The notes under the pieces were generated by a model. The model was given only the letters and a program-made list of their open reading frames with translations. It did not search any database and was not told the DNA's origin. The translations under genes and the position numbers were made by a program. 64,000 bases of DNA from Mycobacteriales bacterium (GTDB taxonomy: Bacteria > Actinomycetota > Actinomycetes > JAFAQI01 > DASSKL01). Below, piece by piece: positions 1,085-11,386 of the stretch (position 1 is the first letter of the stretch; each line of letters begins with the position of its first letter). The stretch spans positions 1 to 64,000 of the forward strand of contig DASSKL010000094.1 in NCBI GenBank assembly GCA_035690485.1, in the 5' to 3' direction.

Positions 1085-1180
1085 TGGCGGAGGCGGACGG
1101 GAATCGAACCCACCAGCGACAGTGACTGCCGCTCTACGGTTTTGAAGACCGCGGGGGCCACCAGGCACCCATACGCCTCC
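1085..1180 (-). tRNA. selC: tRNA-Sec (anticodon UCA), selC
   Basis: Read on the minus strand, the 96-base gene starts GGAGGCGT and ends CCGCCTCCGCCA, giving a long acceptor stem with discriminator G and encoded CCA. The anticodon loop CTTCAAA carries TCA, which decodes UGA. The variable arm is long: an eight-pair stem, AGCGGCAG with CTGTCGCT, closed by loop TCA. The T arm is GTGGG-TTCGATT-CCCGT. A UCA anticodon, extended acceptor and very long variable arm identify selenocysteine tRNA. It supplies the tRNA that SelA charges with selenium from SelD's selenophosphate. selD lies about 1.9 kb away and a UGA-containing selenoprotein gene 9.7 kb away. selA and selB are not in the window. Confidence 0.95.
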
Positions 1181-3053: not shown

Positions 3054-4052
3054 ATGACGAGCCTGGAAACCCGCCTCACCCACTATGCGCACGGTGGGGG
3101 GTGCGCCTGCAAGATCCCGCCCGGTGAGCTGGAACACATCGTCGCGGGGCTCGTCGGGCCGGCGATGCCGGCCGGGACGCCGGAGCTGCTCGTGGGACTC
3201 GACGACGGCGACGACGCGGCTGCCGTCCGCCTCGACGGCGACACGGCGGTCATCGCCACCGCCGACTTCTTCACGCCGGTGGTGGACGACCCCTACGACT
3301 GGGGCCGCATCGCCGCGGCCAACGCGCTCTCGGACATCTACGCCATGGGCGGGCGACCGCTGGTGGCGGTCAACCTGCTGGCCTGGCCGCGCGAGGTGCT
3401 GGCGTTCGACCTGGCCCGGGAGGTGCTGCGTGGCGGGCTCGACGTCGCCCGCGCGGCCGGCTGCCACGTGGCGGGCGGGCACAGCGTCGACGACCCGGAG
3501 CCGAAGTACGGCATGGCGGTCACCGGCGTCGGCGACGCCAGGCGGTTGCTGCGCAACGACGCCGCATCCGCGGGTCTGCCGATCTCGCTGTCGAAGCCGC
3601 TCGGGATCGGCGTGCTCAACAGCAAGCACAAGACCACCGGTGAGCGCTTCCCCCAGGCGGTCGAGACGATGACGACGCTCAACCGCGACGCCGCGGAGGC
3701 GGCGCTGGCCGGCGACCTGCGCGCCGCGACCGACGTGACCGGGTTCGGCCTGCTCGGCCACCTCTACAAGATGTGCCGGGCCAGCGGGGTGAGCGCAGTC
3801 GTCGACGCCGCGGCGGTGCCCTATCTCGACGGCGCCCGCGAGGCAGCGGCCGAGGGGCACGTCAGCGGCGGCACCCGGCGCAACCTCGACTGGGTGCGCC
3901 CCCACCTCGACTCCGGGCTCGACGAGCTCGAGCTGCTGCTGCTCGCCGACGCGCAGACCTCCGGCGGGCTGCTGGTCGCCGGGGAGATCCCGGGCGCGCC
4001 CGTCATCGGTCGCTTCGTGCCGGCGGGCGACCGCGCGCTGGTGGTGCGTTGA
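3054..4052 (+). CDS. selD: Selenide, water dikinase (selenophosphate synthase), SelD
   Basis: SelD makes selenophosphate from selenide and ATP, the selenium donor for Sec-tRNA synthesis. The protein is 332 residues, the usual size. The N-terminal signature HGGGCACKIPP places Cys17 and Lys20 exactly where the catalytic Cys/Lys pair of the family sits, so this is the Cys form, not itself a selenoprotein. Further marks are the metal/ATP segment VGLDDGDDAAAVRLD, DPYDWGRIAAANALSDIYAMGG, GGHSVDDPEPKYGMAVTG and DVTGFGLLGHLYKM in the AIRS C-terminal domain. A TAGAGT box six bases upstream indicates a leaderless message. Its nearness to tRNA-Sec and to a UGA-containing gene supports a working selenocysteine pathway. 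Confidence 0.96.
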   Translation: MTSLETRLTHYAHGGGCACKIPPGELEHIVAGLVGPAMPAGTPELLVGLDDGDDAAAVRLDGDTAVIATADFFTPVVDDPYDWGRIAAANALSDIYAMGGRPLVAVNLLAWPREVLAFDLAREVLRGGLDVARAAGCHVAGGHSVDDPEPKYGMAVTGVGDARRLLRNDAASAGLPISLSKPLGIGVLNSKHKTTGERFPQAVETMTTLNRDAAEAALAGDLRAATDVTGFGLLGHLYKMCRASGVSAVVDAAAVPYLDGAREAAAEGHVSGGTRRNLDWVRPHLDSGLDELELLLLADAQTSGGLLVAGEIPGAPVIGRFVPAGDRALVVR

Positions 4053-4751: not shown

Positions 4752-5980
4752 CCGCGGCGGGCGGCCGCTTCACGCTCGCCCGCCGGCTCGGCGCGGCCAC
4801 CGCGGCGCTGTCCCGCGCCACGGGGCGCGGTGGCGGCACCACGATCGGCGGCCGGGTCACCCTCGCCGTCGACCCGTCGGCGCTGCGGCACGCGGCCGCC
4901 GGCCGCCGGCTCGCCCTCGTCAGCGGGACCAACGGCAAGACCACGACCCGGACCCTGCTCGTGGCAGCCCTGCGAACGGCGGGCCCCGTGGTCAGCAACG
5001 GCGGCGGGGCCAACCTGCCACCGGGGCTCACGGCGGCACTCGGCGCGGACCTCGACGCACCTGTCGGCGTGCTGGAGGTGGACGAGCCGTACCTGCCCCG
5101 GGTCGCCGCCACGGTGCGCCCCGAGCTCGTCGTGCTGCTCAACCTCAGCCGCGACCAGCTCGACCGCTACGCGGAGGTGGGCCGCGTCGCCGGCATCTGG
5201 CGCGATGCCCTCGCGCTGCCCGGCGCTGCGACGGCGGTGGCCAACGTCGACGACCCGCTGGTCGTGTGGGCGGCCTCGTCGGCCCCCGCCGTGCGCTGGG
5301 TGTCGGTCGGGCTGCGGTGGCGCGACGACGCCTCCGCCTGCCCGGCCTGCGGTGGCCCCGTGACCTGGCGGGGCGACGACTGGTCGAGCGACTGTGGCTT
5401 CAGCCGCCCCCGACCGGACTGGGTCCTGGAGGGATCGGAGCTCGTCACGCCCGACGGCGAACGCCTCCGGATCCGGCTCGCGCTGCCGGGCGCCGCCAAC
5501 CTCGGCAACGCCGCGCTTGCCGCCGCTGCGGCCGCGGAGTTCGGCGTCGACCCGCGCACGGCTCTCGACGCGATGGCGGCGATCACCGGCGTGGAAGGGC
5601 GCTACGTCGAGCGCGACTTCGCCGGGCGCCGCACCCGGCTGCTGCTCGCGAAGAACCCGGCCGGCTGGCAGGAGAGCCTGTCTTTCGTGCGGCCGGAGGC
5701 GACCCACGTCGTCGTCGCCATCAACGCGCGCGCCGCCGACGGCCGCGACCCGGCCTGGCTGTGGGACGTGCCGTTCGAGCGCCTGCAGGGCCGGTTCGTG
5801 ACCGCGACCGGCGAGCGCTCCCGCGACATGGCCGTGCGGCTGCGCTACGCCGGCGTCGAGCACCAGCGCGTCGACGACTTGGCGCAGGCGCTGCGACGGG
5901 CCGGAGGGCAGGGGCCGCTCGAGGTGCTCGCCAACTACACCGCGTTCCAGCAGCTGCGCAAGGTCGTGGGCGATGCCTGA
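4748..5980 (+). CDS. murT: MurT, lipid II isoglutaminyl synthase ligase subunit
   Basis: MurT activates the D-Glu carboxylate of lipid II with ATP while GatD supplies ammonia, giving D-iso-glutamine in the stem peptide. The 410-residue product has the Mur ligase P-loop SGTNGKTTTRTLL, the LEVDEPYLPRV segment, the central domain ending in GAANLGNAALAAAAAAEFGV, and the C-terminal MurT domain (KNPAGWQESL). The small zinc-ribbon insertion reads SACPACGG...WSSDCGFSRP, so only three of the usual four Cys are present. The GTG at 4748 overlaps the preceding stop and is preferred over an in-frame upstream start at 4526, which would overlap most of the preceding gene. gatD follows with an eight-base overlap. 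Confidence 0.92.
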   Translation: MTAAGGRFTLARRLGAATAALSRATGRGGGTTIGGRVTLAVDPSALRHAAAGRRLALVSGTNGKTTTRTLLVAALRTAGPVVSNGGGANLPPGLTAALGADLDAPVGVLEVDEPYLPRVAATVRPELVVLLNLSRDQLDRYAEVGRVAGIWRDALALPGAATAVANVDDPLVVWAASSAPAVRWVSVGLRWRDDASACPACGGPVTWRGDDWSSDCGFSRPRPDWVLEGSELVTPDGERLRIRLALPGAANLGNAALAAAAAAEFGVDPRTALDAMAAITGVEGRYVERDFAGRRTRLLLAKNPAGWQESLSFVRPEATHVVVAINARAADGRDPAWLWDVPFERLQGRFVTATGERSRDMAVRLRYAGVEHQRVDDLAQALRRAGGQGPLEVLANYTAFQQLRKVVGDA

Positions 5981-6725
5981 CCGGGTCGGTGTGGTGCTCG
6001 TCTACCCGTCGCTGCTCGGGACCTACGGCGACGGCGGCAACGCTCGCATCCTGTGCGAGCGGTTGCGCTGGCGTGGCGTCGACGCCTGCGTGCTCGAGGT
6101 CGGGCTGGACGAGCCGCTCCCCCGCGACGCCGACGTCTACGTGCTCGGCGGCGGGGAGGACACGGCGCAGACCCTCGCCGTCTCGGCCCTGTCGGCCGAC
6201 GGCGGGCTGGCGGCGGCGACCGCGGCCGGCAAACCGGTCTTCGCGGTGTGCGCGGGCTTCCAGATCCTCGGCACGACGTTCCTCGACGGCCGCGGCGCCG
6301 ACCATCCGGGGCTCGGCCTCGTCGACTGCGTGACCAAGCGGCTGCCGGGCCCGCGGGCGGTCGGCGAGCTGCTGGCGCGGCCCGACCTGCCCGGCGTCCC
6401 GGCTCTCACCGGCTACGAGAACCACGGCGGGAAGACGATCCTCGGCCCCGGCGCGCGCCCGCTCGCGCGGGTCGAGTCGGGCGTCGGCAACGGCGACGGC
6501 ACGGAGGGCGCGGTCCAGGGGTCGGTCGTCTGCACCTACGCGCACGGGCCGGCGCTCGCCCGCAACCCCGGCCTCGCCGACCACCTGCTCGCGATGGCCG
6601 TCGGCCCGCTGGCGCCACTCGACGACGGCGAGGAGGACGAGCTGCGGCGGGAACGTCTCGCCGCCGTACGCCGGACCCGCCGGGCCTTCTGGCGCCGGCA
6701 GTGGCGCCCGCCCGCCGCGACCTGA
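5973..6725 (+). CDS. gatD: GatD, lipid II isoglutaminyl synthase glutaminase subunit
   Basis: This 250-residue class I glutamine amidotransferase releases ammonia from glutamine for MurT. The N terminus (RVGVVLVYPSLLGTYGDGGN) is typical of GatD. The nucleophile is Cys93 in FAVCAGFQILG, and the catalytic His lies in CTYAHGPALARNP. The oxyanion-side loop VYVLGGGEDTAQ is also present. The start ATG lies inside the end of murT, so the two are translationally coupled, as expected for an obligate heterodimer. The Arg-rich C-terminal tail (RRTRRAFWRRQWR) is a common feature of actinobacterial GatD. Confidence 0.93.
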   Translation: MPDRVGVVLVYPSLLGTYGDGGNARILCERLRWRGVDACVLEVGLDEPLPRDADVYVLGGGEDTAQTLAVSALSADGGLAAATAAGKPVFAVCAGFQILGTTFLDGRGADHPGLGLVDCVTKRLPGPRAVGELLARPDLPGVPALTGYENHGGKTILGPGARPLARVESGVGNGDGTEGAVQGSVVCTYAHGPALARNPGLADHLLAMAVGPLAPLDDGEEDELRRERLAAVRRTRRAFWRRQWRPPAAT

Positions 6726-9428: not shown

Positions 9429-10859
9429 ATGGACCTGCCCGACGGTGTGGTGGCGATCGTCAAGCGCGACTGCCCCACCTGCACGCTCGTCGAGCCGGTG
9501 CTGCAGCAGCTCGCTGCCGTGGTGCCGCTGACGGTCTTCAGCCAGGACGACCCGACGTTCCCGGCCGGGGTCCCCTGCGTGGTCGACGACACCTCGCTGG
9601 CGACCAGCTGGCACCTCGACCTGATCGCCGTGCCGACGTTGCTGCGGGTGGAGAACGGCGTGGAGGTCGCGCGCACGGAGGGTTGGCTGCGGTCCACGTG
9701 GGAGGAGCTGACCGGCGTCGCCGACCTGGGCCCCGGGCTGCCCGACTACCGGCCCGGCTGCGGGTCGCGCACGGTCGAGCCGGGCGTGGCCGAGGAGCTG
9801 GCCGTGCGGTTCGGCGGCTCGGTGCTGCGGTCCCGGCGCGTGGAGATCGCCGACCTCGAGGACGAGATGGAGGCGCTCTTCGACCGCGGCTGGACCGACG
9901 GGCTGCCGGTCGTGCCACCGACCGAGGCCCGGGTGCTGCGCATGCTCGAGGGCACGACCCGAGCCCCTGACGACGTCGTCACGGTGATGCCACCCGACCT
10001 CGTCGAGTGCACGGTCGAGAAAGTCGCGATCAACGCGGTCATGGCCGGCTGCCTGCCGGAGTACCTGCCGGTGGTCCTCGCCGCGGTCGAAGCGGCGGCG
10101 ACCGACGCGTTCAACGCGCACGGGCTGCTGGCGACGACGTACTTCTCCGGCCCGCTGGTGCTCGTCAACGGCCCCGTCGCCACGAAGATCGGCATGAACA
10201 GCGGCCTCAACGCCCTCGGTCAGGGCAACCGCGCCAACGCGACGATCGGCCGGGCGCTGCAGCTGGTCATCCGCAACGTCGGGGGCGGGCGGCCGGGCGA
10301 GGTCGACCGGGCCACGCTGGGCAACCCGGGCAAGTTCACCTTCTGCTTCGCGGAGGCGGAGGACAGTTCGCCGTTCGAGCCGTTCTCCGTGTCACGCGGC
10401 CTGCCGGTCGGCACGTCGGCCGTGACGCTCTTCGCCGGGGCCGGGGTGCAGCCGGTGGTCGACCAGCACTCCCGCCGGCCCGAGTCGCTGGCGCGCTCGT
10501 ACGCCGCCGCGTTGCGGGTCAACGCCCACCCCAAGCTGCCGATCGCGTTCGACGCGATGCTCGTGGTCTCCCCCGAGCACGGCCGGGTCTTCCGCGACGC
10601 GAGGTGGGACCGCGCGCGGCTGCTGGCCGAGCTGCACGAGCTGCTGCTCCTCCCGGGCAGGGACATCGTCGAGGGCGCCGCCGACATCGACGAGGGGATC
10701 CCGGAGGCCTTCCGCGACAGCGTGCTGCCGAAGTTCCGCGACGGCGGGCTGCTCGTCGTGCACGCCGGTGGCACGGCCGGCATGTTCTCGGCCATCATCG
10801 GTGGTTGGGTGAGTGGGGATTCCGGAAGCCAGCCGGTCACCGTGGAGGTGCGCTCATGA
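9429..10859 (+). CDS. Thioredoxin-fold fusion protein of the UGSC selenoprotein operon
   Basis: The 476-residue protein begins with a thioredoxin-like domain (residues 1 to about 98). It has an active-site C15-P-T-C18 (VKRDCPTCTLVEP) and a cis-Pro-type segment LIAVPTLLRVENG. After a linker comes a domain of about 340 residues that opens LFDRGWTDGLPVVPPTEARV and contains GPLVLVNGPVATKIGMNSG, LGNPGKFTFCFAEAE and VVHAGGTAGMFSAII. I recognise the second domain as a conserved companion of UGSC-type proteins but know no proven activity. The ATG of the selenoprotein gene overlaps the stop (ATGA), so the two products are made together. A dithiol-reducing role toward the Sec protein is an inference from the CxxC domain and coupling. 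Confidence 0.75.
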   Translation: MDLPDGVVAIVKRDCPTCTLVEPVLQQLAAVVPLTVFSQDDPTFPAGVPCVVDDTSLATSWHLDLIAVPTLLRVENGVEVARTEGWLRSTWEELTGVADLGPGLPDYRPGCGSRTVEPGVAEELAVRFGGSVLRSRRVEIADLEDEMEALFDRGWTDGLPVVPPTEARVLRMLEGTTRAPDDVVTVMPPDLVECTVEKVAINAVMAGCLPEYLPVVLAAVEAAATDAFNAHGLLATTYFSGPLVLVNGPVATKIGMNSGLNALGQGNRANATIGRALQLVIRNVGGGRPGEVDRATLGNPGKFTFCFAEAEDSSPFEPFSVSRGLPVGTSAVTLFAGAGVQPVVDQHSRRPESLARSYAAALRVNAHPKLPIAFDAMLVVSPEHGRVFRDARWDRARLLAELHELLLLPGRDIVEGAADIDEGIPEAFRDSVLPKFRDGGLLVVHAGGTAGMFSAIIGGWVSGDSGSQPVTVEVRS

Positions 10860-11386
10860 GAACCGTGCTCGATCCGACCGGGGAGCTGCGGCCGGCGACC
10901 CGTGAGCTGCTGTCACGCCCGGCCTCGTTGAACGGACGGACCGTCGGCCTGCTCGACATCTCCAAGCCGCGCGGAGACGTGTTCCTCGACACCCTCGCGG
11001 CCCGGCTCGCGGAGCGGGGCGCGACCGTCGAGCGCTACCGCAAGCCGACGTTCACCAAGCCGGCGCCCGTCGACCTTCGGCACGAGATCGCCACCCGTTG
11101 CGAGGTGGTCATCGAGGCGCTCGCGGATTGAGGGTCGTGCACGTCGTGCAGTGTGCACGACATCGCCGACCTCGAACGCCGTGGCGTCGTGGGCGTCTTC
11201 GTCGCCTCGACGGAGTTCGTCGCGGCGGCCGCCGCGCAGTCGCGGGCCCTGGGCTTCCCGGCCGCATCCGTCTTCGTGCCCCATCCGATCCAGGACCGCA
11301 CCGACGAGGAGATGCGGGCCCTGGCCGAGGCCGCAGTCGAGGAGATCGTGCGCGCGGTGACCGACGAAGGGACCAACGGCTCCTGA
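10856..11386 (+). CDS. UGSC-family selenoprotein with in-frame UGA (Sec92)
   Basis: Ordinary reading stops after 91 codons at a TGA (11129-11131), but the same frame continues without interruption to 11384-11386. It gives 176 residues with the motif U92-G-S-C95-T-S-C98-S-V-H-D. This matches the UGSC selenoprotein family, in which UGSC and the following SVHD..ELE..G segment are the hallmark; here the continuation is IADLERRGVVGVFVASTEF. The C-terminal half has a Rossmann-like look (GFPAASVFVPHPIQDRTDEEM). A nine-pair stem-loop starts just after the UGA. The gene overlaps the thioredoxin-fold gene by ATGA. selC and selD are in the same window. The catalysed reaction is unknown; a selenol/thiol redox site is likely. 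Confidence 0.85.
11129..11161 (+). promoter_or_regulatory. Putative bacterial SECIS element after UGA
   Basis: Two bases after the UGA, GTCGTGCAC (11134-11142) pairs perfectly with GTGCACGAC (11153-11161) around a ten-base loop, GTCGTGCAGT. Bacterial SECIS hairpins lie inside the coding region immediately 3' of the Sec codon and bind SelB, so position and stability fit. The loop differs from the E. coli fdhF loop, as is usual between phyla. Confidence 0.6.

Follow-up and report, generated by a model that had tools for sequence, protein, structure and literature searches.

The locus considered here raises the question of whether a TGA triplet in the middle of a reading frame is a stop or a codon for selenocysteine (Sec) and, if it encodes Sec, what the protein does and with which partner. 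The frame occupies positions 10856-11386 of a 64,000-nucleotide stretch of contig DASSKL010000094.1 of a Mycobacteriales bacterium (GCA_035690485.1), which we call the window. Judged from sequence comparison, it is almost certainly a gene of the UGSC selenoprotein family, in which UGA codon 92 would be decoded as Sec by SelA, SelB, SelC, and SelD, with a hairpin at 11143-11161 serving as the selenocysteine insertion sequence (SECIS) element. With very high confidence, the UGSC protein also acts jointly with the product of the upstream gene at 9429-10859, to which it appears to be translationally coupled; that both readings are correct jointly is highly probable. An earlier note made from the sequence had proposed the selenoprotein gene but missed the coupled upstream gene and the relation to GrdB and PrdB. 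UGSC is a published selenoprotein family without assigned function (PMC2398784, PMC13188914), and the window gene is an ordinary new member of a large Actinomycetota subgroup of this known family.

The in-frame UGA and its hairpin

The frame opened by the ATG at 10856 contains a single internal TGA and continues to a stop at 11384-11386, as the earlier note had read it; the residues around Sec92 are ALAD-U-GSCTSCSVHDIADLERRGV. The read-through product matches PF24696 over residues 3-169 (E=9.1e-46, 156.6 bits, cut-off 25) and NF041046 (157.1 bits, curated cut-off 125), which confirms the family membership proposed in that note. The match is whole-length and spans both sides of the TGA, and the motif reads Sec92-G-S-C. 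The earlier note expected standard gene callers to return two truncated genes; a minor correction is that in the raw list of open reading frames (ORFs) the first part lies in a frame open from GTG 10007 (374 aa) and the second is a 77-aa ORF from GTG 11153.

The relatives comprise eighty from species genomes and a few found by profile. At about 100 independent loci, homologues show similarity both before and after codon 92, with 65-73% identity for the aligned Sec homologues and about 30% for two Cys homologues. Of the homologues scored first, 74 have TGA at codon 92, 7 have TAG, and 2 have TGC; two loci outside this scoring (L003 and L004) also have TGC. Sec (TGA or TAG) or Cys (TGC or TGT) occupies the position in every full-length homologue examined, and none was found to end at codon 91. 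Across 81 Sec loci the amino acids are conserved and the synonymous codons vary, the hairpin excepted. The two-sided similarity, the Sec or Cys at position 92, and the synonymous variation with amino acids kept indicate that the downstream continuation is real coding sequence, and the protein is continuous across the TGA as previously claimed.

Published ranges for bacterial SECIS elements are a loop of 3-9 nt, a stem of 4-16 bp, a G in the first two loop positions, a distance of 16-37 nt from the UGA, and -7.5 kcal/mol or lower (PMC13188914). The window hairpin, located 12-30 nt 3' of the UGA, lies within all of them, with a 3-nt loop that begins with G, an 8-bp stem, 19 nt between UGA and loop, and a stability of -12.4 kcal/mol. 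Seven of its eight pairs are formed in 81/81 Sec loci and the remaining pair in 73/81. The synonymous sites of codons 96-103 are frozen in these loci: Thr96 is ACG in 78/78, and Cys98 (TGC), Ser99 (AGT), Val100 (GTG), and Asp102 (GAC) are fixed in 81/81 each; at other positions of the gene these residues are encoded by a mixture of codons, which gives an expected identity of 0.39 for Ser99 and 0.42 for Val100. Codons 97 and 101 covary, with TCG or ACG accompanied by CAC in 60 loci and by CAT, a G-U intermediate, in 10, and TCA or ACA accompanied by CAT in 11 loci and never by CAC. This change from G-C to A-U shows that the stem pairs.

The DNA patterns used to find the 81 loci might bias the frozen sites, and so these sites were retested on profile-found loci, with the same outcome. 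Of twenty profile-found TGA loci, 17 have the full 8-bp stem and 3 retain 6 or 7 of its pairs; two profile-found loci (L102 and L112) have a C-G to G-C pair exchange at codons 98/100, together with a Cys98-to-Trp replacement. The hairpin is absent from seven Cys homologues, which have 1-5 pairs left and other Ser codons. All p-values in this work are guides only, because related sequences share ancestry. In a codon-shuffle test of the window hairpin only, 7.6% of shuffles were at least as stable, which is not significant. The SECIS claim therefore rests on the comparison, by which the hairpin noted earlier is real and conserved, its stability as a single sequence being unexceptional. The TCG codon for Ser94 in the window gives rise to a further inverted repeat (TCGTGCAC...GTGCACGA, within 11134-11161), which overlaps the conserved hairpin and would compete with it. 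The true stop of the gene is also TGA, and so the hairpin, not the codon, must discriminate Sec from stop.

The machinery for Sec is complete in this genome. The window carries selC and selD (Table 1), and a different contig has selA next to selB; the read-through that the earlier note had inferred from selC, selD, and the hairpin is thus supported by all four genes as well as by the conserved hairpin and the Sec/Cys homologues. All seven TAG loci are from Blastococcus or Geodermatophilus (Geodermatophilaceae), and their genomes have a tRNA-Sec with anticodon CUA, which ARAGORN labels tRNA-Pyl on account of the anticodon. The UAG/CUA switch, UGSC being one of the genes affected, is attributed to Mukai et al. 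(2016) in PMC5330540; it is not new, yet it is strong independent evidence for tRNA-Sec decoding of the UGSC family. Reading of the UGA by a near-cognate tRNA, or insertion of a residue other than Sec, would be chemically compatible with the sequence data but is very improbable, given that UAG appears exactly where tRNA-Sec has CUA, that Cys is the replacement residue in other homologues, and that the SECIS hairpin occurs only with a Sec codon. The comparative data refute, as nearly as such data can, a real stop, sequencing error, or pseudogene with noise downstream, since, however unexceptional the window hairpin may be on its own, TGA or TAG recurs at the same codon in more than 100 loci from many assemblies, the protein is conserved on both sides, synonymous freezing is confined to the hairpin, and the full machinery is accompanied elsewhere by a matching codon/anticodon change.

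Table 1. Positions of the features discussed, with the support for each
Feature	Position	Strand	Support
UGSC-family selenoprotein gene (putative), 176 residues, Sec at position 92	10856..11386	+	PF24696, NF041046, alignment of 31 homologues
In-frame TGA, predicted Sec codon 92	11129..11131	+	TGA/TAG/TGC at aligned codon in homologues
SECIS-like hairpin	11143..11161	+	8-bp stem 11143-11150 / 11154-11161, apical loop GUG 11151-11153
Partner gene, N-terminal thioredoxin-like domain (CPTC) and conserved C-terminal domain	9429..10859	+	TIGR01068, adjacency, co-occurrence
Partner C-terminal domain, ~330 residues	9855..10856	+	Nearly invariant Cys208; alignment of 24 divergent members
selC, tRNA-Sec, anticodon UCA	1089..1180	-	RF01852 (77.2 bits, E=4e-14); ARAGORN
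selD, selenophosphate synthetase, Cys form (GGGCACK)	3054..4052	+	TIGR00476 (E=4.1e-117, 390.8 bits, cut-off 125)

The upstream partner gene

The upstream gene and the selenoprotein gene share 4 bases, where the stop of the first overlaps the ATG of the second. The association of the two genes extends well beyond the window, and the upstream gene is an obligate partner of UGSC. The partner adjoins UGSC in 29/29 profile-found loci examined, in either gene order and in one case in the same frame, and the adjacency holds also for Cys-form UGSC genes and for partners without the thioredoxin part. When UGSC matches longer than 200 bp are considered, 37 of the 42 lie within 300 bp of a partner match on the same strand, again in either order. 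In a survey of 398 genomes of the phylum, the partner was present in all 27 with UGSC above the cut-off and in 1 of the 371 without it, there as a tandem double domain (Fisher p=5e-41). That genome (G275, locus L154) has two tandem partner domains, with no UGSC gene on the stretch examined, and is the sole partner-only genome of the 398.

Several genomes have two or more UGSC-partner pairs. One genome, G454 (L100, L183, L194, L196, and L197), has six UGSC matches and no fewer than five partner genes, which suggests paralogues with different substrates. At another locus (L031:6495-7960) the partner gene has an in-frame TAG inside the thioredoxin domain, from either an error or a broken gene. 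In the window's clade no gene other than the partner was found to form a conserved operon with UGSC, and viral contigs yielded no partner. A general UGSC-partner pairing was not found described in the searched papers that mention UGSC together with selenoproteins.

The thioredoxin model TIGR01068 matches 22/29 partner homologues (best E=6.5e-6), and thioredoxins in the PDB were also matched. The C-terminal domain matched no Pfam or NCBIfam family, and a PDB sequence search with both alignments returned no relative of this domain or of the Sec domain. A Foldseek match of the partner to class I fumarase (E about 1e-4) was dropped at a template modelling (TM) score of 0.24 and a root mean square deviation of 16 Å, and so no fold is claimed for the partner.

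Relation to GrdB and PrdB, and a possible function

When 31 UGSC proteins were scanned singly, the GrdF model matched 24 (best 2.4e-5), GrdB 21 (best 4.4e-6), the general selenoprotein B model 12, and PrdB one, with every match in the C-terminal, Sec-bearing part. In a profile-profile comparison with GrdB-like genes of Actinomycetota, found via PF07355, UGSC aligned at P=0.001, and 12 shuffled or reversed decoys gave 0.2 or more. The UGSCTSC of the window protein has the pattern of the GrdB motif UxxCxxC (PMC13188914) at the homologous position, Sec aligned on Sec. By these sequence similarities the Sec half of UGSC is a distant homologue of the GrdB/PrdB Sec domain and not a member of the GrdB family, since N-terminal domain, score, and pyruvoyl partner are all wanting. 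The Actinomycetota GrdB-like selenoprotein genes (L159-L170) have their in-frame TGA in UGTGTRCG, with a GrdE-like frame lying next to at least L159, L164, and L170. Short PrdB-like frames (L175-L182) have an in-frame TGA at ULTC, UPLC, or UPIC, followed by a conserved second half.

The AlphaFold2 model of the UGSC protein (pLDDT 91.9, pTM 0.86) has alternating strands and helices in a doubly wound Rossmann/flavodoxin-like order, with Sec92 starting the helix after the third strand, and its Foldseek neighbours in the PDB are flavodoxins and lumazine synthases at TM scores of about 0.4-0.5. The predicted fold is thus flavodoxin/Rossmann-like, which contradicts the thioredoxin-like fold assumed in PMC2398784; no thioredoxin topology of the Sec domain was seen in the model or by Foldseek.

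We favor, tentatively and at close to even confidence, the view that UGSC and its partner form a two-component reductive enzyme that operates in the manner of protein B of glycine reductase or PrdB of proline reductase; a thioredoxin-fed, GrdB-like enzyme is the most likely function for the pair. The Sec selenolate in UxxCxxC, at the helix start of the Rossmann/flavodoxin-like domain, would attack the substrate or cleave a C-N, C-S, or similar bond; an oxidised Se-S bond (selenenyl-sulfide) would form with Cys95 and be reduced again by the partner's thioredoxin domain, and the C-terminal domain of the partner would bind or activate the substrate.

Several observations weigh against such a function. 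The curated cut-offs for GrdB/PrdB are missed by a wide distance (18.4 bits versus 602.2 for TIGR01917, and 14.2 versus 65.45 for TIGR01918), and the UGSC protein has neither a PF07355 match nor the GrdB N-terminal domain. The pyruvoyl subunit GrdE/PrdA is absent beside UGSC, and the partner is unlike it in comparison with a single GrdE-like reference: with this one ORF (P=0.25), and likewise with GrdB (P=0.45), there is no alignment, and homology of the partner to GrdE or GrdB was rejected. Divergent members have Trp, Tyr, or Ser instead of the third Cys of the motif (C98), and in divergent subfamilies no thioredoxin domain is fused to the partner.

A thiol:disulfide oxidoreductase or peroxidase with the thioredoxin-like fold of the literature, reduced by the upstream protein, would suit the thioredoxin domain that the partner bears in the window's clade. 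This seems unlikely, however, because the model, predicted with confidence, shows a doubly wound alpha/beta fold with flavodoxin-like neighbours, the sequence similarity points to GrdB/PrdB, and a general peroxidase has no need for an obligate ~330-residue partner domain. The neighbours of divergent copies, surveyed in few copies per family and with crude gene calls, include short-chain and acyl-CoA dehydrogenases, class III CoA transferases, 2-hydroxyacid dehydrogenases, and organic-solute transporters, which fit catabolism of organic compounds and name none. Such surroundings also speak against a role in detoxification or assimilation in which a metal(loid) or a sulfur or selenium compound is bound at the Sec site and no organic bond is broken. 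Metal- or substrate-ligand roles have been proposed for other selenoproteins without assigned function (PMC13188914), but genes for metal resistance are not a recurrent feature around the pair, where the partner is the only conserved neighbour, and we regard this alternative as improbable.

Returning to the reductive enzyme, UGSC and its partner may constitute a new and widespread class of two-component GrdB/PrdB-like reductive selenoenzymes that occur as several paralogues in a genome, draw on a fused thioredoxin domain, and use a substrate-activating domain instead of the pyruvoyl subunit; we put this possibility somewhat below an even chance. Elsewhere in the window, 5973-6725 encodes a GatD-like amidotransferase (E=1.5e-26) directly downstream of a Mur-ligase-like frame, the two probably being a MurT/GatD pair.

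Comparison with known systems

UGSC is among the most abundant selenoprotein families in aquatic metagenomes, with 255 sequences from the Global Ocean Sampling (GOS) data (PMC2398784), and it has been without a function for two decades. What this analysis adds is the partner, the kinship with GrdB/PrdB, and the predicted fold; together they provide a concrete, testable hypothesis, namely thioredoxin-dependent reductive cleavage by the two proteins together. The alignment of both genes also enables callers that halt at UGA (or UAG) to recover the full two-gene unit.

Compared with the UGSC family as defined from the Sargasso Sea and GOS selenoproteomes (PF24696/NF041046; PMC2398784), the window protein is above both curated cut-offs over its whole length and has the same motif and Sec/Cys placement, with no excluding difference. 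GrdB, GrdF, and GrdH (glycine, sarcosine, and betaine reductases) and PrdB differ more. GrdB has about 430 residues and UGSC 176; UGSC lacks PF07355, is found in Actinomycetota with a partner other than GrdE/PrdA, and scores below the cut-offs. What is shared is UxxCxxC followed by a helix, a strand, and a conserved H-P-x-x-D-type segment, and the sequence match, limited to the Sec domain, is significant though weak.

The GOS paper describes a fusion of UGSC with a domain named "Unknown_1" (PMC2398784), likewise a combination of UGSC with a second conserved domain of undescribed function. Unknown_1 is probably the same partner domain; in the window, however, UGSC and the partner are encoded by distinct genes that overlap, and a thioredoxin domain precedes the conserved domain of the partner. 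The UAG-encoded selenoproteins of Geodermatophilaceae include an orthologous UGSC gene and hairpin, the same partner gene, and the same 4-base overlap, the codon being UAG and the anticodon CUA there, and UGA and UCA in the window.
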